The translations under genes were made by a program, and so were the position numbers. 35,353 nt of DNA, taken from assembly GCA_017622505.1 (NCBI GenBank), contig JAGAQZ010000079.1, positions 1-35,353 of the forward strand, in the 5' to 3' direction. The notes under the pieces were generated by a model. It worked only from the letters and a program-made list of their open reading frames with translations, searched no databases and was not told the DNA's origin. The stretch is from Lachnospiraceae bacterium (GTDB taxonomy: Bacteria > Bacillota > Clostridia > Lachnospirales > Lachnospiraceae). The first letter of the stretch is position 1. The number at the start of each line of letters is the position of its first letter. This document shows, one piece after another, positions 10,602-34,423 of the stretch.

Positions 10602-11885
10602 ATGAACGATACGATAAACAAAGTAAAAAAGAAAAAGAGAAAACTGATTAAGCGTAGGGCGGCACTTTTTGCGATAGTATTTTCGTTGGTAATATTGCTT
10701 GGATTGGGCGTTGCATACTTTTATAACGCCAATCGTCCTATGTATGCAGGCGTGGTTTTGCCTGCGACAGAGCGTGGATTTGAAGTTGTTGAAACACCTG
10801 CGGAATGGACTGCGTTGGAAGAAGAGCTGGTGATGGAAGTGGAAGAGCGCGTGCGCCTTGTGATGGTGGGCGATATGCTGATGCATCTGCGCGTAACCCA
10901 GAGCGGTTGCATGGAAGATGGTACTTATAATTATGACCATATTTTTGAGCATGTCAAAGAAGATATACAGGCTGCGGATCTTGCGATTGTGAACCAGGAA
11001 ATTATTCTTGGCGGGCCGGACCTTGGTTATTCCGGTTATCCCATGTTCAATACGGCTTATGAGCTTGGGGATGCCATTGATGAGGCCGGGTTTGATGTGG
11101 TGCTTCATGCAACCAACCATACAATGGATAAGGGCAGAGCAGGCCTTATGAATTGCCTAAATTATTGGAGTGAGTATCACCCGGATATTAAGGTACTTGG
11201 TGCTAATAAGACGCAGGAAGAGTACGAAGAGGTATATATTTACGAACAGGACGGGATGAAAATTGCCATTCTGAATTATACTTATGGGTTGAATGGTATG
11301 CCTATGCCTACAGATATGCCTTTTGCGGTAGATATGATGGTTGAGGATAAAATGTCCGCGGACCTTGCCAAAGCCGAAGCGGAGGCGGATTTTACGGTAG
11401 TGTGCCTGCATTGGGGAAACGAATACCAGACTTATGCGTCCGAAAATCAGAAAATGTGGGCGAACTTCTTCTTAGAGCGCGGAACGGATTTGATTATCGG
11501 AACCCATCCCCACGTAATTCAGCCTGTGGAATGGTATGAAGACGAAGCCGGCAATCGGATGCTTGTGTACTATTCCATCGGTAATTTCATCAATTCTACG
11601 GCAGACAGCGGTAACGGTATCGGTAAAAGAGTGGTAGGTGCAATGGCGGAAGTGGAGCTTGTCCGTGATGAGAATGGCGAAGTGGTCATTGATACTTACG
11701 GTGTAACACCGCTGGTAACGCAGATTGAAGCAGGTCCGGGAAATATTACTACATACAAATTGGAAGATTATAGTCAGGAACTGGCGGACAGCAATCAGAT
11801 GTCGTGGAAGGACCCGGGATTTTCTTATGAGTTCTGTAAAGAACTTTGCCGTGAAGTATTTGGGGAGTTATATATTGAGGAATAG
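10602..11885 (+). CDS. CapA-family protein (poly-gamma-glutamate/capsule type, metallophosphatase-like)
   Basis: 427 residues. A basic N-terminus (KKKKRKLIKRR) is followed by one membrane anchor (about 22-44), so the enzyme domain lies outside the cell. The CapA/PgsA domain spans about 85-390 with its usual motifs in order: LVMVGDMLMH, VNQEIILGG, LHATNHTMDKG, LHWGNEY, GTHPHVIQP and YYSIGNFI. The Asp and His residues in these motifs match the metal-binding positions of the calcineurin-like fold that this family resembles. In Bacillus, CapA/PgsA takes part in poly-gamma-glutamate export or anchoring, but no capB or capC homologue lies nearby, so this role is not supported here; stand-alone CapA-like proteins are common in Clostridia and of unknown function. 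No clear terminator follows. Confidence 0.9.
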   Translation: MNDTINKVKKKKRKLIKRRAALFAIVFSLVILLGLGVAYFYNANRPMYAGVVLPATERGFEVVETPAEWTALEEELVMEVEERVRLVMVGDMLMHLRVTQSGCMEDGTYNYDHIFEHVKEDIQAADLAIVNQEIILGGPDLGYSGYPMFNTAYELGDAIDEAGFDVVLHATNHTMDKGRAGLMNCLNYWSEYHPDIKVLGANKTQEEYEEVYIYEQDGMKIAILNYTYGLNGMPMPTDMPFAVDMMVEDKMSADLAKAEAEADFTVVCLHWGNEYQTYASENQKMWANFFLERGTDLIIGTHPHVIQPVEWYEDEAGNRMLVYYSIGNFINSTADSGNGIGKRVVGAMAEVELVRDENGEVVIDTYGVTPLVTQIEAGPGNITTYKLEDYSQELADSNQMSWKDPGFSYEFCKELCREVFGELYIEE

Positions 11886-11999: not shown

Positions 12000-12033
12000 A
12001 GGCAAAGTGTTAAGGTAGAAATGCCACACGGAT

Positions 12034-12107
12034 GTGTGCTTAGCTCAGCTGGATAGAGCGTTTGGCTACGGACCAAAAGGTCGGGGGTTCGAATCCTCTA
12101 GCGCACG
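12034..12107 (+). tRNA. tRNA-Arg (anticodon ACG)
   Basis: A full cloverleaf can be folded by hand. Acceptor strands GTGTGCT and AGCGCAC pair over 7 positions (one G-T). The D-arm stem is GCTC/GAGC, the anticodon stem TTTGG/CCAAA with loop CTACGGA, so the anticodon is ACG. The variable loop is AGGTC and the T-arm has the TTCGAAT loop. The discriminator base is G at 12107. CCA is not encoded. A34 is expected to be edited to inosine by TadA, so it reads CGU, CGC and CGA. It is a single-gene transcript with its own promoter and terminator. Confidence 0.95.
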
Positions 12108-12113
12108 TACTAA

Positions 12114-12337: not shown

Positions 12338-12853
12338 ATGCTGATGTTTCGTGAGTTGACACCAGAAGAAAGTGCTACCATTGAAAAATTTCATCAAATG
12401 AAAGGACAGATTTCGGACCTTGAATTGCGCAAGCTTGAGAAGAGGAAAGAAATAGAGTATTTCGAAGACCGCAGAAGTATGGACTATGTTCCACCGGTAA
12501 TATGGGGCTTGTTAACCTTGTCTCAGGTTGTGCTGATTTTCTTTGACTTGTTTTTCGGTTGGTGGAATATGCGATTTAACTGGGCGATTATTATGGCATC
12601 TTTGACCCCTGTGTTGCTTATCTTTTTTGGATTCTTTTTTGTAAAAACATTGATGCAATATGTGTACAGAAATTCCAAGAATCCTACATATATGAAGAAA
12701 GCGGTGGATAAAGGCATTGAGAACCGATGGGTGCGTTCTGCTAAACTGAATCACGAATTGGAGCAGATTAACGCAGAATTGCGTCTGCTCAAGAAGGATT
12801 ACGGTTATCTGAAACTGGAAGTGGATAAGATTGAAGCAAATCAATATCAATAA
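12338..12853 (+). CDS. Unknown small membrane protein with flanking coiled coils
   Basis: 171 residues; I do not recognise a family. Residues about 10-47 are charged and helical (ISDLELRKLEKRKEIEYFED), then two membrane helices follow at about 52-74 and 84-108. A basic connector comes next, then a second charged helical segment at about 135-168 (LNHELEQINAELRLLKKDYG) with heptad-like spacing. Both ends are therefore probably cytoplasmic with a short outside loop. The ATG is preceded by GGGAGAG at a rather long distance. The gene stands between the tRNA-Arg unit and the solute-binding cluster with no sign of co-transcription with either. Confidence 0.7.
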   Translation: MLMFRELTPEESATIEKFHQMKGQISDLELRKLEKRKEIEYFEDRRSMDYVPPVIWGLLTLSQVVLIFFDLFFGWWNMRFNWAIIMASLTPVLLIFFGFFFVKTLMQYVYRNSKNPTYMKKAVDKGIENRWVRSAKLNHELEQINAELRLLKKDYGYLKLEVDKIEANQYQ

Positions 12854-12982: not shown

Positions 12983-15196
12983 ATGAGAAAATTCAGTCTT
13001 TTTAACAATCGCAGTCTTACAGCCCTTACATTAAGCGTGGCTATGGTGCTTGGGCTTGTGGGCTGTGGTAAAGATGGCGAAACCACGGCAAACAGTGGAA
13101 AAGAAGGTAATGCATCGGACGTGGTGTATGTCGCGGATTATCTGGATGTAAAAGATGTAGGCGACATTGTTAATCTGAAAGAAATTGACGGTGTGTTACA
13201 TATGTTGACTGCGAATTACGGGGAAGAAAGTACACAGTATAAATTGGTGAATTACAATTTGGCTGATGCAAGTTCTACAGAAACGGTTTTGGCAACTGCC
13301 AACGGTGGATATTTGAGTTCTTCTTTTTTCAATGAAGACGGAAGCCTTGAGACCATTGAAAGCAAGGAAGAATATGATGATGAATGGAATCTTCTCTCAA
13401 GAGAAGTGTATATGAATAAGTATGATGTCACAGGCGGGCTTCTTTCTTCGGAAGAAGCGTCTGCGAAACTGAAACTGGATGAAGATTTCTATATTTCACA
13501 TTTTTATAAAGACAGTGAAGGAAATTATCTGATCGGAAGCTGGGAGCAACCCCTTAAAATTTATTCGCCGGATTTGGTACAAACCGGTGAAATTACCAGC
13601 AACAATCCATTTGACGGATTATGTATGACCGGAAGCGGTAAACTTGTTACTTCCTACTGGGGAAATATGGGCGTTGATATTGCGGTTGTAGATGTGGCTG
13701 CCAAAAAGGTTGGAACACCAATCAGTACTAATAAAAGTAGTGGTTCCACACAAGTTTGGCCGGGGCCCGGAGACACGGTTCTTTACGTGAACGGAAACGA
13801 ACTTTGTTCCTGTGATGTGGTGACCGGAGAAATTAAAGTGGTTATGGACGTCATGGATATGGATATCAATGCAGATTATCTTCAGCGCGTATATCCTATG
13901 GGCGACGGCAGCTATTTAATGTCTTATTATGATTACGGTGTAGATACAGATGGTTTGTTTATTGCCAAACCGGTAGACCCGTCTACAATCAAAGAACGCA
14001 CCGAATTAACTATTGCAACCGTTTATGCAAATCAGGATTTAAATGATGCGGTAATTAATTTTAATCGAAATAATGAAGAATATCGTATCAAGGTTATAGA
14101 TTATAGTACAGATGATTGGGATTGGGAAGCTTCCATCACAAATTTGCAGAATGATATCGTGGCAGGCAATGTGCCTGATATGATTGATATGAGTTCGCTG
14201 AATATACCTTGGCGTAATTGGGCAGCAAAAGGAATCATTACAGACCTTTATCCTTTGATGGAGGCTGACGCTACATTTGCAAAGGAAGAACTTCTTGAGA
14301 ATGTGAGAGAAGCCTATGAAGTAGATGGTTCCTTATATGTACTTCCTTCTACAATCGGTATCAGCGGCGTTTGGGTGAAAGAAAAGTTTGCAGAAGGTTC
14401 TACGGCTTTGACCCCTGCTATGTTATTGGAAATGGAAAAAGAACTACCTGAAGATGTGCAATTATTCTATTATTCCTATCAGGGTGAAGTGATGTACAAC
14501 ATGGTTTATAATAACATGACGGCTTATGTGAATTATGAAACCGGTGAGTGCAATTTCAATTCCGATGAGTTTAAGGAAGTGCTTGCTTATGCGAAAGAAC
14601 AGCCCGTAGATATCGTTTGGGAAGAGGGCGAAAGTCTTCCGGCACTGTTAAAAGAAGACAAAGTAATCTTTTATAATATGAATATGCAGCAGATGCCTGA
14701 TTATCAGTTCCATAAATTCGTATTTGGTGAAGATATTACAGTACTTGGATATGCAGGCGAAGACGAAGATGGTATTCGCATCATTCCCAGCGGATGTGCA
14801 ATTGCCATTACAGAGCAGTGCGAGCATAAGGATATTGCATGGCAGTTTGCGAAAACCTTTGTCAGTGAAGAATATTTAACCGGACAGCATCGTTGGGGTA
14901 TTCCTGTTACGCAGGCCGGCCTTGACAACTTCATCTATGAAGCACAGCATATGGAAGGAACCCACGGATACGGTTGGGACGATGTAAATATTGAAATTGA
15001 AAGTGCAACGGATGAAGATGTGGAAGGCTTCCTTGCAATTTTAGAGAAGGCAGATGAATTGCAGTATCAGGATACGGCGATTATGGCTATCATTGAAGAA
15101 GAAGTGAAGCCTTACTTTGAAGGCCAGAAGAGTGTTGATGAGGTTGCGGACATTATCCAGAGCCGTGTGGATATTTATCTGAAAGAGAATATGTAA
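12983..15196 (+). CDS. Very large solute-binding lipoprotein (family 1 SBP with N-terminal extra domain)
   Basis: 737 residues. The signal peptide ends in the lipobox LVGC (Cys near 28), so it is a membrane-anchored lipoprotein. Residues about 45-335 form an additional region rich in short beta segments, with repeated GDGSYLMSYY- and EGNYLIGSW-like strands that suggest a beta-propeller; this is inference. The C-terminal part from about 340 is a type 1 extracellular solute-binding domain: LTIATVYANQ, then INFNRNNEEYRIKVIDY, NDIVAGNVPDMIDM and a late DIAWQFAKTF segment. Typical proteins of this type have 400-450 residues. The last ~35 residues (YFEGQKSVDEVADIIQSR) closely match the end of the second SBP at 20013. 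A GGAGGAG ribosome binding site precedes the ATG. Two permease genes follow. No convincing promoter was found in the 129-base gap upstream. Confidence 0.9.
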   Translation: MRKFSLFNNRSLTALTLSVAMVLGLVGCGKDGETTANSGKEGNASDVVYVADYLDVKDVGDIVNLKEIDGVLHMLTANYGEESTQYKLVNYNLADASSTETVLATANGGYLSSSFFNEDGSLETIESKEEYDDEWNLLSREVYMNKYDVTGGLLSSEEASAKLKLDEDFYISHFYKDSEGNYLIGSWEQPLKIYSPDLVQTGEITSNNPFDGLCMTGSGKLVTSYWGNMGVDIAVVDVAAKKVGTPISTNKSSGSTQVWPGPGDTVLYVNGNELCSCDVVTGEIKVVMDVMDMDINADYLQRVYPMGDGSYLMSYYDYGVDTDGLFIAKPVDPSTIKERTELTIATVYANQDLNDAVINFNRNNEEYRIKVIDYSTDDWDWEASITNLQNDIVAGNVPDMIDMSSLNIPWRNWAAKGIITDLYPLMEADATFAKEELLENVREAYEVDGSLYVLPSTIGISGVWVKEKFAEGSTALTPAMLLEMEKELPEDVQLFYYSYQGEVMYNMVYNNMTAYVNYETGECNFNSDEFKEVLAYAKEQPVDIVWEEGESLPALLKEDKVIFYNMNMQQMPDYQFHKFVFGEDITVLGYAGEDEDGIRIIPSGCAIAITEQCEHKDIAWQFAKTFVSEEYLTGQHRWGIPVTQAGLDNFIYEAQHMEGTHGYGWDDVNIEIESATDEDVEGFLAILEKADELQYQDTAIMAIIEEEVKPYFEGQKSVDEVADIIQSRVDIYLKENM

Positions 15197-15271
15197 CGAT
15201 TCAGAACCGATTTTGCGAATGAGGCCCTGGTAGTTACAAAAATATGTAATATTAGAAACGGAGGGGAAGTC

Positions 15272-16198
15272 ATGAGTAAGAAGACTTCGGAAGCGAAAGT
15301 GAAAAAGGCTTCCGCACCTCGTAAAAAAGCAACAAAAAGAATATGGAAAACAAGAGCCAAACTGGGTGCATTTTTAGCACCCAGTCTTGGTGGTGTATCG
15401 GTATTTTATGCAATACCCTTCCTTGTGGTAATCTTTTATGCACTTGTAGATAACCCCATCAGCAAGCGCTTTGTTTTCCTTGACAATTTTATCAATGTAT
15501 TCCAGAACCAGGCCTTTCAACTGGCTGCTTGGAATACCCTTAAATTTTCACTGGTAGCGGTTCCGTTAGCAGTGATTATTTCGCTTTTAATGGCATTTTT
15601 GCTGGATGAGAGAATTCCTTTTGCAAGCAAATTCAGGTCTATATACTTAAGCCCTATGATGGTGCCGGTAGCGTCCATTATTCTGGTGTTCCAGGTGCTG
15701 TTTAACTACAACGGTGTTATCAACGTAGTGGTGGAATGGTTTGGCGGAAGTCAGATTGACTGGTTTAAGTCAGATTGGGCCCCCTTGGTAGTATTGCTTT
15801 TATTCCTTTGGAAAAATCTCGGATACAATATGATTCTTTTTCTGGCGGCTCTGGGAACCATACCAAGGGAAGCGATGGAGGTTGCTTTGCTGGAAAGCAA
15901 TTCGGCGTGGAAGATGTTCTGGCATATTAAAATCAGATACCTTTCACCCACGATTTTGTTTGTTACGATTATGTCTTTGATTAGTTCTTTTAAGGTGTTT
16001 CGAGAGGTCTATTTGCTGACGGGGGATTACCCTTACGACAGTCTGTATACCTTGCAGCACTTTATGAATAATACCTTCCGGCAGTTGGATTATCAGAAAC
16101 TTTCGTCTGCGGCGATTATTATGGCGGCGGTGATGGTGGTAATTATCGGCGGATTGTATCTTGCAGAGAACTATTTCGGTAAGGATATGGAAGAGTAA
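15272..16198 (+). CDS. Sugar-type ABC permease (MalF/UgpA-like) with a degenerate EAA motif
   Basis: 308 residues with about six membrane helices after a long basic N-terminal tail (about 1-30, rich in Lys). The overall pattern (PSLGGVSVFYAIPFL, KNLGYNMILFLAALGTIP, VFREVYLLTG) is that of binding-protein-dependent sugar transport permeases. The cytoplasmic EAA loop, which docks the ATPase, reads MEVALLESNSAWKMFWHIK. The usual EAA-x3-G-x9-I-x-LP core has lost its Gly (S-N-S where D-G-A is expected) and its LP (RYLSP). The partner permease keeps the consensus. No ATPase gene is nearby; a shared MsmX-type ATPase is possible. A GGAGGGG ribosome binding site precedes the ATG. Confidence 0.9.
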   Translation: MSKKTSEAKVKKASAPRKKATKRIWKTRAKLGAFLAPSLGGVSVFYAIPFLVVIFYALVDNPISKRFVFLDNFINVFQNQAFQLAAWNTLKFSLVAVPLAVIISLLMAFLLDERIPFASKFRSIYLSPMMVPVASIILVFQVLFNYNGVINVVVEWFGGSQIDWFKSDWAPLVVLLLFLWKNLGYNMILFLAALGTIPREAMEVALLESNSAWKMFWHIKIRYLSPTILFVTIMSLISSFKVFREVYLLTGDYPYDSLYTLQHFMNNTFRQLDYQKLSSAAIIMAAVMVVIIGGLYLAENYFGKDMEE

Positions 16199-16255
16199 AG
16201 CGATATCGATTTGTGATCGGGAAATAAAAGTTGTAAAGAAAATCAGGAAAATTAT

Positions 16256-17182
16256 ATGGGAAGATTCGGTAAATATTCCGGCGAAAAGAAAGGCTGGAAA
16301 AAGTTTAAAAAAGTTGTACGAACCGTAGTGCTTACTACGATTGCAACCATATTTGCGATATTATTCCTTTTGCCCACGGTATTGACCATAACCAATTCTT
16401 TTATGAGTCAGTCGGAAATATCGGCAAACTACGGTAAAATATTCGAAACCACAGACAACGGCGGTAAGGTATTCGTGGCGGAGACGGTAAATTTGAAATT
16501 CGTTCCGGATATGGTTACCTTTCAGCAGTACATAACCGTACTTTTGAAAAGTCCGGAGTATTTGTTTAAGTTCTGGAACTCAGTGATTTATACAGTGGTA
16601 ATTGTAGTGTTCCAGCTGGTGGTGGCGATGCTTGCGTCCTATGCTTTTATGAGGTATAAGGGGCGATTGAAGGAGATTATTTTCTTTTTGTATATTATCG
16701 TGACACTGATGCCTTACCAGGTTACGCTGGTGCCAAACTTTCTGGTGGCAGACTGGCTTGGCATTATTGATACCAGATGGGCGATTTGGATGCCGGGTAT
16801 ATTTTCACCCTTTGCGGTGTATCTGCTGACCAAGTATATGAAGCGAATTCCAAGTTCGATTATCGAGGCGGCAAGAGTGGACGGCGCCGGGGAATGGCAG
16901 ATTTTCAGGCATATTTGTCTGCCTTTATGTAAGGGTGCCCTGTACTCGGTAGCAATTCTTGTTTTTATTGATTTCTGGAATATGGTAGAGCAACCGCTGA
17001 TTTTATTGACCAATGCGGACTTGCACCCCTTATCAATCTTTTTGTCAAAGATTAATGCAGGGGAAATCGGTCTGGCGTTCGCAGTGGCAACCGTATATAT
17101 GGTGCCCAGCTTGCTGGTATTTTTATATGGCGAAGATTATCTGGTAGAGGGCATTACCTACCAGGGCGGAGTAAAAGGATAA
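16256..17182 (+). CDS. Sugar-type ABC permease (MalG/AraQ-like)
   Basis: 308 residues, about six membrane helices, with an enlarged outside loop between helices 1 and 2 (about residues 55-95). The EAA loop is canonical: IIEAARVDGAGEWQIFRHI followed by CLPL. This is the second half of the heterodimeric channel with the preceding gene, 57 bases upstream. The C-terminus ends in LVEGITYQGGVKG; 'EG(I/L)T.GAVKG'-like endings are common in this permease class. The HlyD-type gene begins 13 bases after the stop, so the two are very probably on one transcript. The substrate is unknown. Confidence 0.93.
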   Translation: MGRFGKYSGEKKGWKKFKKVVRTVVLTTIATIFAILFLLPTVLTITNSFMSQSEISANYGKIFETTDNGGKVFVAETVNLKFVPDMVTFQQYITVLLKSPEYLFKFWNSVIYTVVIVVFQLVVAMLASYAFMRYKGRLKEIIFFLYIIVTLMPYQVTLVPNFLVADWLGIIDTRWAIWMPGIFSPFAVYLLTKYMKRIPSSIIEAARVDGAGEWQIFRHICLPLCKGALYSVAILVFIDFWNMVEQPLILLTNADLHPLSIFLSKINAGEIGLAFAVATVYMVPSLLVFLYGEDYLVEGITYQGGVKG

Positions 17183-17195
17183 CGGAGGAAAAGTA

Positions 17196-18809
17196 ATGGT
17201 AGCAATAGAGAATGAAAATAAAGGAAGCCGTAAAAGAGAGTGGATTAAAAATATCGCGATTATCTTTTTGACGATTATGCTGATTCTGACTTTCTTTTCC
17301 AATACAATTATGAATTATTCACTGCCCCAGGTAGCAACCCGCTATGTGGAGAGCGGTTCGATTTCTGCCCAGATTCGCGGTACGGGTACCGTGGAAGCGG
17401 TAGATCCTTATAATGTGGTGGTAAACGAATCCAGAGTGATTTCTTCGGTGGCGGTAAAGGCTGAGTCTTACGTGGAAAAAGGTGATGTGCTTTACTATTT
17501 GGAAGATAGGGAAAGCGCCGAACTTGAGACTGCAAGGGAAGAACTTGCGGCAGCGCAGCTTGCATACGATAAAGCGATTTTAAACGGTGGACTTACCAGA
17601 GCAGAAGTTACGGAAATTGAAAACGGATTGGTGGAAAGCGTAACCCAGAGCCAGGCACGTCTCGAAGCTGCTGATGCGAAAATTGCAGAATTACAGCATA
17701 CGGTGAATGTATATCAGGCTAATGTAAATGCCCTTCAGGCCAGAATTGATACCTTGGCTTCTTCTAAGGTGGATGCAAGCGCAGAGAGCAAGGCTTTGGC
17801 ACAGGCAGAGATTAACTTAAACAACGGAAAGGCAACACTTGCCCAAGCGCAGAATGCCTATGATGCGGTCAAAGATTTGCCGGATACAGACCAAAGTAAA
17901 ATTGATGCAGCAACTAAACTTTATCAGGAGCAGGATAACGTAGCAAAGCTTGAGGCTGCAGTATCCAATGCGAGAGTGGCGTTGGAATTAAAGACAGGAA
18001 GCGCAGATATTGCCAATCAGATTGCTGCATTGGAAAAAGAAAAAGTAGGTGCGAATAACGTTTTGTCCGCAGCGCAGATTAATCTCGAGAATGCAATCAA
18101 AGAAAAAGATGAAATGCTTGCAGAAATTCTTACAAAGATGGATATTGCCGATGCATATCAGGCAATTAAAGATAAAAAAGCGGAAATCGCTAAATTAGAG
18201 GCGGATTCAGTTGGCGGAGCCATTACGGCACCTGTATCGGGAACCGTAACAAGTCTTTCTTATACAGCAGGTGAAACCACGGTGGCAGGGGAACCGGCAG
18301 CAGTTATCCAGATTGAAGGCAAGGGTTATACCATGACGCTTTCCGTACCTAACAAGCAAGCATCTACCGTTAAAGTGGGTGACCCTGTGGAATTGCAGAA
18401 TGCATGGTATTATGATGATGTGACTGCGTCTTTGATAGCAATCCGTAATGATAAGACAAATCCCGGACAGAATAAGGTGCTTGAGTTCCAGTTGACCGGT
18501 GATTCCTTGGTGCCCGGACAGTCCTTGAGTGTTGCAATCGGACAGAGAAGTGTTAACTATGATTTGATTGTGCCTAACAGCGCAATTCGTGAAGACAATA
18601 ACGGCAAGTTTATCTTGATTGTGGAATCCAAGTTTGCGCCCTTTGGTAACCGTTATGTGGCACAGCGTGTGGATGTGGAAGTCATTGCAAGCGATGATAC
18701 CCAGACTGCAATTAAAGCAGGCTTGTATGGTTACGAATATGTTATTACAACATCGACTAAACCCATAGAATCCGGTGATCAGGTTCGTTTATCCGAGGAG
18801 ATGAATTAA
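17196..18809 (+). CDS. HlyD-family membrane fusion (adaptor) protein
   Basis: 537 residues. A short cytoplasmic start is followed by one membrane anchor (about 23-42), then the first half of a lipoyl-like hairpin (GSISAQIRGTGTVEAVDPY; VAVKAESYVEKGDVLYYL). A very long Ala/Glu/Gln-rich coiled coil spans about 100-325, and the second lipoyl half follows (ITAPVSGTVTSLSYTAGE). Beta-barrel and membrane-proximal regions run to the end (VPNSAIRED, GLYGYEYVITTS). This is the layout of adaptor proteins of MacA/YknX or HlyD type, which normally work with efflux ABC transporters. Here it sits directly behind import-type permeases and is translationally coupled, by a one-base TAATG overlap, to a MacB-core protein. 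GGAGGAAAA precedes the ATG. Confidence 0.92.
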   Translation: MVAIENENKGSRKREWIKNIAIIFLTIMLILTFFSNTIMNYSLPQVATRYVESGSISAQIRGTGTVEAVDPYNVVVNESRVISSVAVKAESYVEKGDVLYYLEDRESAELETAREELAAAQLAYDKAILNGGLTRAEVTEIENGLVESVTQSQARLEAADAKIAELQHTVNVYQANVNALQARIDTLASSKVDASAESKALAQAEINLNNGKATLAQAQNAYDAVKDLPDTDQSKIDAATKLYQEQDNVAKLEAAVSNARVALELKTGSADIANQIAALEKEKVGANNVLSAAQINLENAIKEKDEMLAEILTKMDIADAYQAIKDKKAEIAKLEADSVGGAITAPVSGTVTSLSYTAGETTVAGEPAAVIQIEGKGYTMTLSVPNKQASTVKVGDPVELQNAWYYDDVTASLIAIRNDKTNPGQNKVLEFQLTGDSLVPGQSLSVAIGQRSVNYDLIVPNSAIREDNNGKFILIVESKFAPFGNRYVAQRVDVEVIASDDTQTAIKAGLYGYEYVITTSTKPIESGDQVRLSEEMN

Positions 18810-19942
18810 TGATAAAAGAAGTGTTTTTTCGAATTAAAGAACGCTTGATGCAAATCGGACTTTTTAAAACCATTGTATTGTTTCTGACTTTTATAATGCT
18901 GATAACGGTGGCTGTCCTGGGAATAGTGTTGCAGGTCGGCAAGAATTCCCTGGAAGACCAATTGATGGCCAAACGCTGGTCGATGAAAAAGGACGTGGCG
19001 CAAATCAGTTGCTTCTATTCGCAGGATGCTTTTATGACGGAAGACAGTATTGAAGAGATGCGTTATCTTCTGAGTAAAAAGTTGCAGGAACTGGCAATTG
19101 AGCCGAATACGGCAAATGCGAGATTGTATATTGACGCTTATTCGGCCCAGGGGACGATTTCCATACAAAGCGATAAAAAAAGCATACAGGCCACGGCTAT
19201 TGGCATCGGTGGAGACTTCTTTATGTTTCATCCGGTTAAGCTGAAGGGCGGAATGTATTTTAGCGGTAACGATTTGATGCAGGATGCGATTCTTTTGGAT
19301 GAAGAGGCTGCGTGGCAGTTGTTCGGTTCCAATGATATTGCCGGTAAAACTGTGACCATTGGAGGTTTGCCTTATCGCGTGGCAGGGGTTTATGAGCGGC
19401 CGCAGGGAGATTTGGAAACCTTGGCAGGCAGTGAAGATACGACAGTTTATGTGTCTTTTAGCACATTAAATGCCATGAAATCGGCTTCTGTTACCTGTTA
19501 TGAAGTTGTAATGCCAAATCCCGTTGAAGGTTTTGCAATGGACCGGATGCTTGAAATTAATTTAAGTTCTGAAGAAATGGTGAAAATGGTTGAAAATTCC
19601 AATCGTTTTTCGTATATTTCATTGTACAACGTTTGGAAAGAGCGTGCTGCAAGAAGTATGAAGACCGACGATATTGTACTGCCTTTCTGGGAAAATTTGG
19701 CCCGATATAAGGAAGAACAGATGATGGAAGTGGCCCTTTGGCAGGTGGTGCTTGCGGGTATTCTCTTGATTTATTGGGGAATAAAGGGTATGATTTGGGT
19801 AATCAGACATAAACCTACCGCGCAGACCTTTGTCAAAATAGGGGATTTTATAAGTGAGAAATTCCGCGGGGCAAAGAAGCGTGCCAAGGCGAAAAGGAAA
19901 GCGCGAAAGGAGCAGGAGCAGAATACATATATTGATGAATAG
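18809..19942 (+). CDS. Membrane-anchored MacB periplasmic-core-domain protein without FtsX channel
   Basis: 377 residues. One membrane segment lies near the N-terminus (about 20-42) and one near the C-terminus (about 308-329), ending in a strongly basic cytoplasmic tail (KKRAKAKRKARKEQ). The region between matches the MacB periplasmic core domain: DAYSAQGTISI, GIGGDFFMFHPVKLKGGMY, AILLDEEAAWQLFGSNDIAG, KTVTIGGLPYRVAGVYE. In MacB and relatives this domain is followed by an FtsX-type three-helix unit; that part is missing, leaving only two helices. The start overlaps the stop of the HlyD-type gene by one base, implying a tight stoichiometric pair. I infer a mechanotransmission partner of the adaptor, not a transporter by itself. 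Confidence 0.85.
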   Translation: MIKEVFFRIKERLMQIGLFKTIVLFLTFIMLITVAVLGIVLQVGKNSLEDQLMAKRWSMKKDVAQISCFYSQDAFMTEDSIEEMRYLLSKKLQELAIEPNTANARLYIDAYSAQGTISIQSDKKSIQATAIGIGGDFFMFHPVKLKGGMYFSGNDLMQDAILLDEEAAWQLFGSNDIAGKTVTIGGLPYRVAGVYERPQGDLETLAGSEDTTVYVSFSTLNAMKSASVTCYEVVMPNPVEGFAMDRMLEINLSSEEMVKMVENSNRFSYISLYNVWKERAARSMKTDDIVLPFWENLARYKEEQMMEVALWQVVLAGILLIYWGIKGMIWVIRHKPTAQTFVKIGDFISEKFRGAKKRAKAKRKARKEQEQNTYIDE

Positions 19943-20012
19943 ATGTATGCTTATGTTTCGGAAGCTGTTTGTTTGATTTGGGTGTAAAATATAAAAAGTA
20001 AGAGGAGGAATT

Positions 20013-22535
20013 ATGATGAAAGGAAAGTTAAAAAAAGCAATTTGCATGGCTTTGGCAACCGTTATGGTGGTTTCCATGACTGCCTGCTTTGGAAAAGGCA
20101 ATGGAGGTGATGCCAGCGATGCACTGGCACAGGCTTCAGATTCTGCCAACGCGAAAGAAGCCGTTTTTAAGGAAATCGGCAGTGTTAATCCGGAGGCGGA
20201 ATGGTTTGACAATGTTCTCGTGGATGGCGAGGAGGTCATTGTGGTATGGTCCGAGTATGTGGATGTTTATGGAGAAGAGGGTGGAGATGTGATGCCCGGT
20301 GGTGAGGCCGTACCTTATGAAGAAGATATGACCGGAGAAGTGCCGGAGACACCAGTTGAGGAAGAAATGCCTGAAGAAGAGGGTGCGATTACTGAGGATG
20401 TTGCAACCGAGGGAGAAGGCGTGGACTCGGTGGTAATTGTAGATGATCCTATGATGCCTATGCCTGAAGTTGAATATATTCCTGAGGATAACTACAGTTT
20501 TTATTATAAGTTAAACTTAGGCAGAGTATCCTTTGGCGGAACCGGAATGTCGGTAACATCTATTGACCTTCCGGAAAAGGAATACAGTTGCGGTATATCT
20601 ATTGACCCGAGTACAGGAAATTATGTAATTGTAACCGAGCATACGGAAGAAGATTACAGCGACCCTGAGAACTATACATATGAAACACATTTGTATATGA
20701 ATGTATATTCTAAATCGGGCGAACTTGTGAGCCGTGAAGAGTTGGATTTGGGAATTAAATCAGATGAGTATTATGGCATCTATGGTATGGGTATTGCAGC
20801 AAACGGCGATATTTGTCTTTTATCAGACCGTACTTTAATTGTATTAAATTCTTCTTTACAGAAGGTTGGCCAGGTGGCATTCAGCGACAATCAGTGGGTA
20901 GAAAGTTTCTTCGTATCTTCAGATGGCGTACCTTATGTATACATTTGGACAGAAGGCGGAGAATCTTCAGAAAGTACCTTCCATATGGTTGATACCCAGC
21001 AGGTAAAAATCGGTCCCGCGATAGAAGCACCGGAAGAATTCTGGGGTGGCGTAAGACCGGGTGCCGGACATGATATGTATTATACTACCGATAAGGGTGT
21101 ATATACCTACGATTTCGATAGCAAAGAGAACAAGAAGATCCTGGATTATGTAGATTCAGATATTGATTATAATTTCGTAAATTATTGTGTACCCATTGAT
21201 GAAACACGCATTGTTGCAGTGGTAAATGATCCTGAGACTTGGGAAGCATCCGTTTCTTTCTTAGAGAAAGTGCCCCCCGAGGAAGTAGTGGATAAAATCA
21301 TCATTACCATGGGTATGGTTTATACAGACTATGAAATCCGCAGTAAGGTAATTGCTTTTAACAAGGCAAGTGACAAGTACCGCATCCGAATGATTGAGTA
21401 TTACGAGTATAACAATGAGGCTGACTGGAATGCAGGACAGAAAATGTTTAACAATGACATTATTACGTCTAATGCACCGGATATCATTGTGATTAACAGC
21501 GGTATGCCTGTAGACAGTTTTATGGATAAGGGTGTGTTCCTTAACTTAAATCCTTATATTGAAGCTGATCCGGATGTAAGCAAAGAAGATATGGCTCCTA
21601 ACGTTTTGGCATTAGGTTCCAGAGGCGACGATACTTATATTTTAACAGGTGCTTTTACCATCAGTACAATGGCAATGAAGAAGTCGCTTGTACCAAACGG
21701 CGAAACCATTACTTTGGCAGAATTGCGCCAGCTTGAGCAGAAGTACGGTACTTTGGCATTCCGTGATGCTACAAGAAATGATGTACTTTACTATGCAATG
21801 GAAATGAATTATTCAGAGTTCCTAGATTTAAAAACAGGTAAGTGTGACTTTAATACACCTGCATTTTATGAATTGTTGGAATATGCAAAGCAGTATCCCG
21901 AAGAGATTGATTGGGAAAGTATGGACGATAATTATTGGATGGAGTCTGAAACTGCAATCAGAGATAACAAAGCGTTATTGGCATATTATACAGTAGGATA
22001 TTTTAACAATATGGCATGGACCGAGCAGGGTGTTTTCGGAGAAGATGTGGCATTGGTTGGCTTCCCCGGAAACTCGGGAAATACCGGTGCAATTTATCCC
22101 TATTTCCAGATGGCGATTTCCAATGACTGTGAGCATCCGGAAGAAGCTTGGCAGTTTATGAGACAGTTCTATACCTATGAAGGCCAGAAGGAAATTGACT
22201 ATGGTGCACCCTTAAATCTTAAGGTAATGGATGAGAGATTGGAGCAGGCGCAGCAGAGACCTTACTGGATTGATGATGACGGCAATAAGGTTGAGTATGA
22301 TGAAACCTATTGGATTGGCGATCAGGAAATCATTATCCAGCCCTTAAGCGCTGAACGTGCACAGGAATTAAAAGAGTATACATTGTCCGTAGATAAGTTG
22401 TATTATTACGATTCTTCCATCAGTGATATTATCGCGGAAGAAGCGGCGCCGTTCTTTGCGGGACAGAAGACTGCAGAACAGGCAGCTGACATTATTCAGA
22501 GCCGTGTACAGATATACGTAAATGAAAATATGTAA
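20013..22535 (+). CDS. Second very large solute-binding lipoprotein, paralogue of the one at 12983
   Basis: 840 residues. Signal peptide with lipobox MTAC (Cys near 25), so a lipoprotein. After it comes an acidic, Pro/Glu-rich and probably disordered stretch (about 75-145, with PETPVEEEMPEEEG). A beta-rich region (about 145-425) contains repeats such as NGDICLLSDRTLIVLN, suggesting a propeller. The family 1 solute-binding domain starts near 427 (IIITMGMVYTDYEIRSK; NDIITSNAPDIIVI; HPEEAWQFMRQF). The ending PFFAGQKTAEQAADIIQSR is nearly that of the first SBP. Two such proteins in one cluster imply two ligands or a division of labour. GAGGAGG precedes the tandem ATGs at 20013 and 20016. HflK starts only 10 bases after the stop. 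Confidence 0.9.
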   Translation: MMKGKLKKAICMALATVMVVSMTACFGKGNGGDASDALAQASDSANAKEAVFKEIGSVNPEAEWFDNVLVDGEEVIVVWSEYVDVYGEEGGDVMPGGEAVPYEEDMTGEVPETPVEEEMPEEEGAITEDVATEGEGVDSVVIVDDPMMPMPEVEYIPEDNYSFYYKLNLGRVSFGGTGMSVTSIDLPEKEYSCGISIDPSTGNYVIVTEHTEEDYSDPENYTYETHLYMNVYSKSGELVSREELDLGIKSDEYYGIYGMGIAANGDICLLSDRTLIVLNSSLQKVGQVAFSDNQWVESFFVSSDGVPYVYIWTEGGESSESTFHMVDTQQVKIGPAIEAPEEFWGGVRPGAGHDMYYTTDKGVYTYDFDSKENKKILDYVDSDIDYNFVNYCVPIDETRIVAVVNDPETWEASVSFLEKVPPEEVVDKIIITMGMVYTDYEIRSKVIAFNKASDKYRIRMIEYYEYNNEADWNAGQKMFNNDIITSNAPDIIVINSGMPVDSFMDKGVFLNLNPYIEADPDVSKEDMAPNVLALGSRGDDTYILTGAFTISTMAMKKSLVPNGETITLAELRQLEQKYGTLAFRDATRNDVLYYAMEMNYSEFLDLKTGKCDFNTPAFYELLEYAKQYPEEIDWESMDDNYWMESETAIRDNKALLAYYTVGYFNNMAWTEQGVFGEDVALVGFPGNSGNTGAIYPYFQMAISNDCEHPEEAWQFMRQFYTYEGQKEIDYGAPLNLKVMDERLEQAQQRPYWIDDDGNKVEYDETYWIGDQEIIIQPLSAERAQELKEYTLSVDKLYYYDSSISDIIAEEAAPFFAGQKTAEQAADIIQSRVQIYVNENM

Positions 22536-22545
22536 GAGGTAAAAA

Positions 22546-23568
22546 ATGGCAGACGAAAACGTATTTGAGCGTTTTACCAGCGATGGTAAATCCAAAGGTA
22601 AAAAGAAAAATGATATTAAAATGCCGAAGGGCATCGGTAAGATTATGTTTGCCGTTGTAGCAGTGATTGTGCTTGCGATTCTGGTGTCACAAAGTACTTA
22701 CACCATTCGTGAGCAGGAACAGGCTGTTTTGGTAACTTTCGGTAAGGCAGAAGCGGTAACCGAGGCCGGCTTGCATTTTAAAATTCCTTTTATCCAACAG
22801 GTAAAAAAGGTAAATACTACAATCCAGGGATTTTCCATCGGTTACGCTTCGGATACGAATGCTACAACGGAAGATGAGTCCTTGATGATTACATCGGATT
22901 ATAACTTTGTTAACGTGGATTTCTTTGTGGAATACCGCGTATCCGACCCTGTGAAAGCATTGTATGCGTCGGAAGAACCGGTGGAGATCCTTAAGAAAAT
23001 TTCGCAGTCCTGTATCCGTAACGTAATCGGCAGTTATGAGGTGGACAGTGTTTTGACTACCGGTAAAAACGAAATTCAGGCGCAGATTAAGGAAATGATT
23101 ATTCAGAAGCTTGAAGAACGTGATATCGGTATCCAGTTAGTGAATATTACCATTCAGGATGCAGAACCGCCTACGGAGGCAGTTATGCAGGCATTTAAAG
23201 CCGTAGAAACTGCTAAACAGGAAAGCGAAACTGCCGTAAACAATGCAAACAAGTATCGTAACGAGCAGATTCCTGCAGCCCAGGCTGAGGCAGACAGAAT
23301 TGTGCAGGAGGCAGAAGCGGATAAAACAGAGCGTATTAATGAAGCAACTGCCCAGGTGGCACGCTTTGATGCTATGTATGCAGAATACGTAAAATATCCC
23401 GAATTAACGCAACAGCGTATGTTCTATGAAACAATGGAAGAGGTATTACCGGACCTTACGGTAATTATCGAAAGCGGTAACGGTGAGACCCAGACTGTTG
23501 TACCGGTAGCACCTTTGTTCGGTAATATTACATCAAGTCCCTACACAACGGGAAATAATGAAGGATAG
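22546..23568 (+). CDS. hflK: HflK-like SPFH/Band 7 membrane protein
   Basis: 340 residues. A charged cytoplasmic N-terminus (SDGKSKGKKKND) is followed by one membrane helix (about 33-50) and an SPFH/Band 7 domain (about 52-230) with YTIREQEQAVLVTFGKAE, EAGLHFKIPFIQQV and YRVSDPVKALY. Next come helical segments rich in Ala/Glu/Gln (QAEADRIVQEAEADKTERIN) and a short C-terminal tail. In proteobacteria, HflK and HflC form a cage around the FtsH protease and modulate membrane-protein turnover. Its gene follows the second SBP gene after 10 bases and precedes HflC by 12, so it belongs to the same transcription unit; that link with a transport cluster is unusual. Confidence 0.88.
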   Translation: MADENVFERFTSDGKSKGKKKNDIKMPKGIGKIMFAVVAVIVLAILVSQSTYTIREQEQAVLVTFGKAEAVTEAGLHFKIPFIQQVKKVNTTIQGFSIGYASDTNATTEDESLMITSDYNFVNVDFFVEYRVSDPVKALYASEEPVEILKKISQSCIRNVIGSYEVDSVLTTGKNEIQAQIKEMIIQKLEERDIGIQLVNITIQDAEPPTEAVMQAFKAVETAKQESETAVNNANKYRNEQIPAAQAEADRIVQEAEADKTERINEATAQVARFDAMYAEYVKYPELTQQRMFYETMEEVLPDLTVIIESGNGETQTVVPVAPLFGNITSSPYTTGNNEG

Positions 23569-23580
23569 GAGGAGAGGATA

Positions 23581-24447
23581 ATGAAAAAAGGCATTATTGC
23601 TGTAGTGATTACGATTGTAACCTTTTTGTTAATTATTACTCTCGGTTCTTCTATCGTAGTGACACAGGAAAATGAATACACATTAATTAAGCAGTTTGGC
23701 AAGGTAGACCGCGTAATTGACGAGGCGGGCTTGAGTTTTAAGATTCCTTTTGTTGAAAGCGTTTATACACTGCCGAAAGAAATACTTTTATATGATTTGG
23801 CACCTTCGGATGTTATTACCGGAGATAAAAAGACTATGATTTGTGACTGTTATGTTCTTTGGGAGATTACGGATGCGTTAAAATTCTCACAGACTTTGAA
23901 TTCTTCCGTAGGAAACGCAGAAAGCCGTATTGATACGGTGGTTTACAATGCAACCAAGAGCGTAATCAGTAGTATGACTCAGGAACAGGTAATTTCCGGC
24001 CGAAGTGATATGCTGCAGGATGCAATTATTAATAACATCGGTAGCTCTATGGAACAGTACGGAATTGCAATTCTTGAGGTGGAAACGATTAAGTTAGACC
24101 TGCCCAACGATAACAAGGAAGCGGTTTATGAGCGTATGATTTCAGAGCGTGACAATATTGCTGCAACTCACATTGCACAGGGACAGGCGGAAGCGCAAAA
24201 AATCAGAAACCAGACAGACAAGGAAGTTGCAATTATGATTTCCGAGGCTGAGAAGGAAGCGGAAATTTTACGTGCGGAAGGTGAAGCGGAATATATGCGT
24301 ATTCTTTCGGAAGCTTATTCCGATGAGAGCAGGGCAGACTTTTATGCATATGTAAGAAGTCTTGATGCAGCCAAGGAAGCGTTACAGGGTGAAGATAAGA
24401 CCTTGATTCTTTCACCGGAATCACCTATGGCGCAAATCTTTTATTAA
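23581..24447 (+). CDS. hflC: HflC-like SPFH/Band 7 membrane protein
   Basis: 288 residues: membrane helix at about 5-26, then a Band 7 domain (VTQENEYTLIKQFGKVDRVI; EAGLSFKIPFVESV; CDCYVLWEITDALKF), a long helix (AEAQKIRNQTDKEVAIMISEAEKE) and the HflC-type end ADFYAYVRSLDAAKEAL followed by LSPESP. These C-terminal motifs are diagnostic for HflC rather than generic stomatins. It is the partner of the preceding HflK in a hetero-oligomeric ring at the outer face of the membrane. A GGAGGAGAG ribosome binding site lies in the short gap. HflKC is best known from Gram-negative bacteria but does occur in Lachnospiraceae-type Clostridia. Confidence 0.9.
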   Translation: MKKGIIAVVITIVTFLLIITLGSSIVVTQENEYTLIKQFGKVDRVIDEAGLSFKIPFVESVYTLPKEILLYDLAPSDVITGDKKTMICDCYVLWEITDALKFSQTLNSSVGNAESRIDTVVYNATKSVISSMTQEQVISGRSDMLQDAIINNIGSSMEQYGIAILEVETIKLDLPNDNKEAVYERMISERDNIAATHIAQGQAEAQKIRNQTDKEVAIMISEAEKEAEILRAEGEAEYMRILSEAYSDESRADFYAYVRSLDAAKEALQGEDKTLILSPESPMAQIFY

Positions 24448-25123: not shown

Positions 25124-25315
25124 TTAAACTGAAATATCAATGTTCCCGCCGAGATGAGGCTGTACGGAATGCTGCATTGCTACACCGTCAATCATCTGAA
25201 CAAGCTGTGCACCCTGCACTTCGGCAGTATTCATTGCCTTGTCTAAAACAGCCATACCGACTTTGGTTCCGATATTATTCTGTGCCATTGCCATTGATAA
25301 TCCTGCGATATCCAT
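25124..25315 (-). CDS. YjfB-like putative motility protein
   Basis: 63 residues from the ATG at 25315, chosen because AAAGGA precedes it at good spacing; an upstream in-frame TTG would add six residues that include the ribosome binding site. The sequence MDIAGLSMAMAQ, then VGMAVLDKAMNTAE and GAQLVQMIDG, matches the small YjfB family found in motile Firmicutes and labelled a putative motility protein. Its molecular role is unknown. It is convergent with the DJ-1 gene and shares its terminator. Together with the chemotaxis receptor it supports a flagellated lifestyle. Confidence 0.85.
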   Translation of the reverse strand: MDIAGLSMAMAQNNIGTKVGMAVLDKAMNTAEVQGAQLVQMIDGVAMQHSVQPHLGGNIDISV

Positions 25316-25386
25316 AAGCTCACGTCCTTTCAATCCATTCTGTTTCCCTTTGAACTAAAATGGTATTCCCCTAATTCTATGCCTAC

Positions 25387-25614: not shown

Positions 25615-25818
25615 TTACTGCATAGATTCTTCCTGACGCTGGATCATTCTACGAACCATTTCGCCACCGATAGAACCGGCTTCTTTAGAAGTAAGGTCAC
25701 CATTGTAACCTTCCTTTAAGTTGATACCTAATTCGCTTGCAACTTCAGTTTTAAAACGATCTAAAGCTGCTTTGTGTGTTTTAGCTGTTGAGCTTGAATT
25801 GCTATTGTTTTTTGACAT
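25615..25818 (-). CDS. Alpha/beta-type small acid-soluble spore protein (SASP)
   Basis: 67 residues from the ATG at 25818; GGAGG lies about 9 bases before it, and the longer TTG start would contain that ribosome binding site. The family signature is clear: FKTEVASELGI holds the germination protease (GPR) cleavage site, and YNGDLTSKEAGSIGGEMVRRMI is the conserved DNA-binding segment. These proteins coat and protect spore DNA and are degraded at germination. The N-terminus (NNSNSSSTAKTHK) is Ser/Asn-rich and variable as usual. The promoter upstream resembles the forespore sigma-G/F type, and a palindrome lies at the expected 5' end of the message. Confidence 0.95.
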   Translation of the reverse strand: MSKNNSNSSSTAKTHKAALDRFKTEVASELGINLKEGYNGDLTSKEAGSIGGEMVRRMIQRQEESMQ

Positions 25819-25856
25819 AGTGTTTTCCTCCAAATTTTATCTTAGTTTATAGTTTC

Positions 25857-33525: not shown

Positions 33526-33565
33526 CGTGCAGCATACTTTAAAAGTATGATTGCACGATTTTTTT
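33526..33565 (+). terminator. Second hairpin with T-run, directly before dpaA
   Basis: CGTGCA (33526-33531) and CATACTTT (33533-33540) pair with AAAAGTATG (33541-33549) and TGCACG (33552-33557), with small bulges, followed by a T-run at 33559-33565. It is 13 bases before the dpaA start codon, so it would stop read-through from truA. Its left arm contains CATACTTTA (33533-33541), which fits the sigma-K -10 pattern CATAnnnTA; a start from there (about 33548) would omit the hairpin. The matching -35 is not convincing. Confidence 0.65.
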
Positions 33566-33577
33566 ATGGAGGCAACG

Positions 33578-34423
33578 GTGAAGGCGTACTTAATCGGCGG
33601 TGACAGCAGAGAAAAATACTTGGCATACCAATTGGAGCGAAACGGCATTGAAATCATACATCCTGAGCAGGTTGACCGGTTAAAAGATAAAAAAGTGGAT
33701 TTCATAGTATTGCCTACCCCGGTCACTATGGATCGTTTTACGGTAAAAGCTACGGAAGGCCAGCGGAAAGTTACTTTAAAAGAGGTTTTGGAAATTGCAG
33801 AAAAAGGTCAATTGGTTTTTGGCGGAATGTTTCCGGCGGAATTTCGAACTGAACTGGTGGAGAAAGGTGCCATTGTTGCAGATTTTATGCAAATGGAAGA
33901 CATTGCAATCCAAAATGCCGTGGCAACGGCGGAAGGTGCCATTGCGGAGGCGGTGTATATGAGTAATGAAGTGCTTCATGGGCAGGAGGTTTTGGTGTTG
34001 GGGTACGGGCGATGCGCGGAAGTGCTGGCAGATAAGTTAAAAGGAATGGCGGCTAAAGTTACGGTGATGGCAAGACGCGAAGAAGCGCGCGCAAGGGCGT
34101 GGACCTTTGGAAATGACAGCAGTACTTTTGACGATTTGAGTCAACTGGAAAAGTACCATTTTATCTTTAATACGGTGCCGTCCATGTGCATTACAAGAGA
34201 GTGGATTGACCGCTTAAACCGATACTGTTGCATCATTGACATTGCCAGCAAACCCGGCGGTACGGATTTTGACTATTGCAGTAAAAAAGGAATTCGCGCT
34301 AAACTTTGCGGGTCTTTACCGGGGCGGTATGCACCGAAGACTTCCGGAGAACTTTTAGCCCAAAAGATTGAAACTATTTTAAAAGAGACCAAAGGATACG
34401 GGTATGAAGAAATGCCGTTTTAA
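33578..34423 (+). CDS. dpaA: Dipicolinate synthase subunit A
   Basis: About 281 residues from the GTG at 33578, which has GGAGG 5 bases upstream. In-frame starts further up (33551, 33566) lie in the hairpin or overlap the ribosome binding site. The N-terminus KAYLIGGDSREKYLAYQL is a first nucleotide-binding-like strand; a Rossmann motif follows at about 145 (VLVLGYGRCAEVLADKL). The end has the family's most conserved part: IDIASKPGGTDFDY, then GSLPGRYAPKTSGELL. With DpaB it oxidises the lysine-pathway intermediate to dipicolinic acid in the mother cell; the product fills the spore core with calcium. In B. subtilis the operon (spoVF) depends on sigma-K. Confidence 0.95.
   Translation: MKAYLIGGDSREKYLAYQLERNGIEIIHPEQVDRLKDKKVDFIVLPTPVTMDRFTVKATEGQRKVTLKEVLEIAEKGQLVFGGMFPAEFRTELVEKGAIVADFMQMEDIAIQNAVATAEGAIAEAVYMSNEVLHGQEVLVLGYGRCAEVLADKLKGMAAKVTVMARREEARARAWTFGNDSSTFDDLSQLEKYHFIFNTVPSMCITREWIDRLNRYCCIIDIASKPGGTDFDYCSKKGIRAKLCGSLPGRYAPKTSGELLAQKIETILKETKGYGYEEMPF

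Follow-up and report, generated by a model that had tools for sequence, protein, structure and literature searches.

A conserved gene unit of Lachnospiraceae combining MalFG-type importer permeases with an HlyD adaptor and a MacB core domain

A 35,353-nucleotide stretch of DNA from a Lachnospiraceae bacterium (assembly GCA_017622505.1, contig JAGAQZ010000079.1; hereafter the window) carries a transport gene cluster whose conserved unit consists of MalF, MalG, HlyD and MacB-core genes in this order (15272–19942), usually with genes for large lipoproteins having an MBP-like half alongside. ATP-binding cassette (ABC) importers are regarded as machines distinct from MacAB-type exporters. The composition of the unit points to a type of transport machine not yet described, in which an importer channel and binding proteins are joined to two parts of an export pump. 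A first-pass annotation of the window had described seven to eight co-directional genes with short gaps or overlaps at 12983–24447. All eight genes were confirmed on the + strand with matching ends, and the Pfam and NCBIfam domains agreed with that description (SBP_bac_1 twice, BPD_transp_1 twice, HlyD_3, MacB_PCD alone and Band_7 twice). In a domain scan, none of the eight was recognised as an ATPase, a regulator or a sugar enzyme.

The adaptor, the MacB core and the MalFG permeases had been proposed to be one unit, and a comparison of gene neighbourhoods bore this out. Of 152 loci examined, 128 contained MalF, MalG and HlyD; of the remaining 24, 12 were truncated at a contig end, 8 had been retrieved for their genes of solute-binding proteins (SBPs) or ATPases, and 4 were non-members. 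In 126 of the 128 loci, the gene after MalF-MalG-HlyD encoded a MacB core, identified with a MacB-core profile in 124 and with Pfam in L229 and L233. Removal of 11 duplicates left 117 loci anchored on the MacB core, 103 of which reached far enough upstream (at least 4.2 kb). The four core genes were contiguous in 99 of these 103 loci, and homologues of the core are thus not found mostly apart in other genomes. In the four exceptions, the HlyD frame was split (L069 and L158) or the genes lay beyond the gap limits with their order unchanged (L119 and L126). In the neighbourhoods from a set of 61 genomes, the four genes also occurred in this order wherever the contig was long enough, the MacB core being in two pieces in L049. 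The surroundings varied among loci and included DJ-1, tig and clp genes; GH10, SAICAR synthetase and ATP synthase; PAP2, PPK2, radical SAM and kinase genes; and, elsewhere, UvrD with a histidine kinase. The gene order was rearranged in two of the 128 loci, L199 and L227. In L199 (genome G1095), two large SBPs come first, HlyD and a weak MacB_PCD protein follow, and MalF and MalG come last; the MacB core domain itself scored under the cut-off there. Several candidates were rejected as members: G840/L205 lacks MalFG, carrying a set of HlyD, ATPase and MacB, and L228, L232 (G1206 and G1235) and L235 have HlyD matches without MalFG.

These data bear on whether the importer and the adaptor/core pair are independent systems sharing an operon, which we regard as highly improbable. 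The window alone cannot separate one system from two, and the two halves are reordered in L199 and L227; however, the core is contiguous in nearly all loci, and its HlyD and MacB-core proteins form dedicated subfamilies with invariant residues. The window adaptor has the motif LTFFSNTI.N..LP.V, a loose form of which was found in 125 of 126 proteins, and the strict FFSNT was found in 85 of 114, truncated proteins counted. Furthermore, a MacB core lacking both ATPase and FtsX has no evident independent job.

The adaptor gene (17196–18809, +) encodes an HlyD/MacA-type protein with an N-terminal membrane anchor, as judged from Pfam, NCBIfam and alignment; it scored above the cut-off for HlyD_3 and below that for RND_mfp (82.6 bits versus 94.9). 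In the alignment, the hairpin region of the 126 proteins ranged from 89 to 402 residues, with approximately 235 residues in the window protein. As an antiparallel coiled coil with 1.5 A per residue, the window hairpin would be roughly 17 nm long, and the range of hairpin lengths in the 126 proteins would correspond to an HlyD tube that extends some 7 to 30 nm into the wall. The MacB-core gene (18809–19942, +) overlaps the adaptor gene by one base (18809), and its product consists of a transmembrane helix, MacB_PCD, a second transmembrane helix and a helical tail. By crude hydropathy, two transmembrane helices were counted in 99 of 125 MacB-core proteins, three in 13, one in 1, and five or six in 12. 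No FtsX domain was detected in the 12 proteins scanned, namely that of the window and 11 relatives including the five- and six-helix forms.

The unit resembles the MacAB, YknXYZ and Spr0693-0695 exporters in having an HlyD/MacA-type adaptor gene next to a gene for the MacB outer (core) domain, but differs from them in having neither FtsX nor a LolD/MacB-type ATPase in the operon, and MalFG-type permeases instead. A structural precedent is the hexameric adaptor tube of a Gram-positive exporter docked on a MacB-like transporter, rising approximately 154 A above the membrane in the available part of that report (PMC5768738). Canonical ATPase-HlyD-MacB exporter sets lie just downstream of the hybrid unit in L088, L109 and L161; their HlyD and MacB are clearly distinct from those of the hybrid unit (L109 and L161 assigned by profile), and the set in L088, a locus of the culturable strain Lachnotalea glycerini DSM 28816, is composed of separate genes adjoining the unit. 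An FtsX/MacB_PCD permease encoded with a PHP protein upstream in L057 was considered as a missing partner and rejected, since other loci, inspected by eye, carry other genes at that position.

The permease genes malF (15272–16198, +) and malG (16256–17182, +) both scored above the BPD_transp_1 cut-off, and their best NCBIfam matches were UgpA/GlcT and GlcU/UgpE, all under the equivalog cut-offs. In the alignment, the EAA loop of MalG was intact (EAARVDGA in the window), and its DG was retained in 109 of 109 sequences. The first-pass statement that no ATPase is present holds for this locus but not for all of its relatives, because an UgpC/MalK-type ATPase, that is, one of importer type, lies within the operon in 12 of the 128 loci. 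It directly follows the MacB core in L150, L151 and L152, which come from other families (NCBIfam assignment for L150 and L152). L166 and seven more loci have the order MalF-MalG-HlyD-MacB core-MalK-SBP, and L225 also contains an ATPase. The genomes G618, G861 and G1032 encode no OB_MalK protein besides the operon ATPase. In the window genome, a single OB_MalK ATPase is located on a different contig (G000:C142); no MalFG was labelled in the 20 kb around it, and the genome has just one other MalG relative. Of 49 genomes selected among the positives, 48 had OB_MalK, and the one lacking it was the non-member G840. Since the operon ATPase of the relatives is of importer type, an ordinary MalK-type motor is most likely, and in the window it would most likely be supplied in trans. 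Such sharing is established for MsmX/MsmK, ATPases that power several importers, in the portions of the source available (PMC7658222).

The lipoprotein SBP1 (12983–15196, +), of the upstream type as judged from Pfam, its lipobox and the SBP tree, consists of an N-terminal part and SBP_bac_1 (residues ~360–631). The downstream-type lipoprotein SBP2 (20013–22535, +) has an all-beta N-terminal part followed by an MBP-like half (residues 427–840), so that the binding protein of MBP fold expected of a CUT1-type importer is present. The N-terminal part of SBP2 is probably a beta-propeller, given its all-beta model and the short matches that propeller proteins gave in the profile search. The lipobox cysteine was invariant in the SBP alignment (A3). 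In the SBP tree, the downstream-type proteins formed one clade separate from the upstream-type proteins, and SBP1 fell on the upstream side; large extra N-terminal parts were present on the SBPs, those of the downstream clade included. An SBP gene was directly upstream of the core in 64 of 94 loci and directly downstream in 73 of 100. The earlier inclusion of the large SBPs in the unit thus stands in that they go with it broadly; within the window's genus, however, they often do not adjoin it, and in all 15 congeners checked that lacked an operon-adjacent SBP, SBPs were retained elsewhere in the genome. Among solved structures, CbpC of Clostridium thermocellum was the best PDB match for the SBP profile as well as for window SBP2 and for four SBPs taken from distant members, SBP1 being compared solely as a row of the SBP profile; the lead of CbpC was slight for the L166 SBP (2.2e-9 versus 4.2e-9 for Lmo0181).

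The separate clade of downstream SBPs with large N-terminal parts, together with the altered coupling loop of MalF described below, could also fit a sensing device, in which propeller-SBP lipoproteins detect ligands of the wall or surface and the complex signals inward with little transport. We consider this quite unlikely: no regulator recurred beside the unit in maps inspected by eye, the histidine kinase in L040 notwithstanding, and the operon includes an ATPase in 12 of the 128 loci.

The distribution of the unit was examined with the MacB-core and HlyD profiles. At an E value of 0.001, the MacB core was found in 36 of the 61 genomes, comprising the window's own genome, 29 of 30 congeners, G032 of another genus with a strong match, and five weak matches. 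Relatives from named genomes, of which the best 80 of 464 were used, were mostly labelled Lachnospiraceae or Acetatifactor. In samples of genomes at higher ranks, the MacB core was detected in 41 of 397 for the family, in 32 of 344 for the order (two of them weak) and in 6 of 398 for the phylum, one of the last being the non-member G840. The HlyD profile gave matches in 8 of the 398 phylum genomes and in 23 of 226 class genomes, the latter including the non-members G1206 and G1235. In total, the unit occurred in 16 families (f1, f17, f57, f37, f105, f157, f166, f168, f170, f193, f194, f196, f198, f209, f211 and f232), the f194 version being reordered; a looser set was also found in f34. These families are not all independent, because the HlyD proteins of f105, f157, f166, f168 and f170, which carry the MalK-containing version (L166, L200–L204 and further matches), are 83–93% identical, and their gene order is shared by f37. 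Such near-identity across five families points to a recent horizontal spread of the operon, and six of the 16 families may stem from one recent transfer. Misbinning cannot account for all of these cases, since three of the genomes with near-identical HlyD comprise just one or two contigs. Contigs labelled Gastranaerophilales and Muribaculum (L094 and L110) carry a full Lachnospiraceae-type unit; our guess is that they are mislabelled metagenome bins. Omp85 was absent from all 14 genomes tested, in a test whose control detected it in 7 of 14 known genomes. The cells would accordingly be bounded by a single membrane, and the adaptor would have no outer-membrane channel to reach.

The first-pass annotation knew of no described system of this composition, and none combining MalFG, HlyD and a MacB core was found in the literature searched, most subscription papers lying outside its coverage. 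Transporter C of C. thermocellum (CbpC, MsdC1 and MsdC2; Cthe_2125-2128 / clo1313_2783-6) is comparable in that CbpC is the closest solved structure to the SBPs of the unit. A gene named acrA, which we take to encode an HlyD-family adaptor, bears on this comparison. The legend of an operon figure lists acrA among the genes of five sugar-transporter operons, the operon not being specified (PMC9601137), and the cbpC operon has four genes including two permeases, namely msdC1, msdC2, cbpC and one unnamed in the passages available (PMC8303734). From these partial sources, we infer that acrA may belong to transporter C as the unnamed fourth gene of the cbpC operon. The text portions available for transporter C differ from our unit in mentioning no MacB-core gene, and they treat it as a putative sugar transporter. 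CUT1 importers with a shared ATPase (MsmX/MsmK) likewise have MalFG and an MBP-like SBP and, as is probable for the present unit, MalK/UgpC in trans, according to the parts of two sources available (PMC7658222, PMC9601137), but the present unit adds HlyD, a MacB core, the extra N-terminal part of the SBPs and an altered EAA loop in MalF. The system is best filed under the CUT1 importer kind, with a composition that was not found described in the literature searched.

With moderate confidence, we favour an ABC importer of the CUT1 type that carries an HlyD/MacB-core structure as an extension of its outer face. MalF and MalG would form the channel, powered by MalK/UgpC-type ATPase subunits from elsewhere in the genome (G000:C142). 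HlyD would form an oligomeric tube within the wall space, sitting on a MacB-core ring as MacA does on MacB, near or on MalFG. The lipid-anchored SBPs would catch the ligand and hand it through or along the HlyD structure to MalFG for import. Having neither FtsX helices nor an ATPase, the MacB core would be a passive collar or gate with no motor role. Import would be the most economical direction.

Several points weigh against this proposal. Outside this unit, the HlyD and MacB families are familiar as components of exporters, and contact of HlyD or the MacB core with MalFG is hypothetical. No SBP lay beside the operon in 22 of the 128 loci, some on cut contigs; these include the f211 loci and L156, for which a search elsewhere in the genome was not made. 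The EAA loop of the window MalF reads EVALLES instead of EAA..DG, and its glycine was replaced in 95 of 104 sequences, the window included. The glycine was kept in all 12 loci with an operon ATPase, whereas in the 116 loci without one it was lost in 97, kept in 18 and gapped in 1, an asymmetry that is confounded by ancestry. In addition, the available parts of one report describe a CbpC pocket blocked by an extra loop, tested sugars that were unbound, and a transporter C mutant whose growth on glucose, cellobiose and Avicel was normal (PMC9601137).

The export origin of the HlyD and MacB domains, the altered MalF loop beside an intact MalG loop, and the prospect that CbpC-like SBPs bind no sugar, with a related mutant free of a sugar growth defect in the portions available (PMC9601137), would also suit a MalFG-MalK motor that drives HlyD/MacB-core work outside the membrane without importing a solute, the SBPs regulating its ATPase activity. 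Lipoproteins, peptides or wall polymers, for example, would be moved outward or along the wall. We judge this rather unlikely: the ATPase is of importer type, the MacB core lacks the FtsX domain, and SBPs are kept in the 15 congeners mentioned above. Moreover, as far as the accessible text goes, CbpC was reported in an older study to bind glucose and cellodextrins (tabulated in PMC11212667), growth on xylose raised cbpC expression (PMC7471329), and cells adapted to glucose showed high expression of two genes of the cbpC operon (PMC8303734). Only tentatively do we put forward a distinct single-membrane ABC machine made up of a MalFGK-type motor, an HlyD tube on a MacB-core collar and dedicated propeller-SBP lipoproteins, which would move a ligand other than an ordinary sugar and possibly perform wall-directed work rather than plain import.

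Downstream of SBP2, HflK (22546–23568, +) and HflC (23581–24447, +) both scored above their NCBIfam cut-offs. They had been proposed to organise the assembly, but HflK was found beside the unit in only 4 of the 117 loci, some of them short, and all four in the window's genus; HflKC was therefore rejected as a part of the machine and is regarded as a local neighbour outside the conserved unit. HflKC lies between SBP2 and a DJ-1 gene solely in the window's close relatives, and in L024 SBP2 adjoins DJ-1 with HflKC absent. A 171-aa membrane/coiled-coil protein (12338–12853, +), with profile homologues before the operon in 12 of the 117 loci, is confined to part of the window's genus; it was rejected as a core part and is a possible weak companion. 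Between 11800 and 26200, terminator-like sites were at chance (10 versus 10.5 expected) and promoter-like sites above it (49 versus 35.7 expected, standard deviation 5.5), so that a single transcript was not demonstrated. A PGA_cap capsule-type gene (10602–11885) and tRNA-Arg(acg) (12033–12108) are located upstream of the transporter unit, and a YjfB-type putative motility protein gene lies at 25124–25333 (−). Genes for an alpha/beta-type small acid-soluble spore protein (25615–25833, −) and a dipicolinate synthase A-like protein (33551–34423, +) are signs of sporulation genes.

If the proposal is true, it would show either that an importer can make use of an adaptor tube or that an adaptor assembly can run on an importer motor. 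Transporter C of C. thermocellum also deserves a fresh examination, its SBP and mutant having been unlike those of a sugar importer in the available part of one study. In Lachnospiraceae, one system would be encoded by genes that are at present annotated apart, as a sugar permease, an efflux adaptor and a MacB-like protein.
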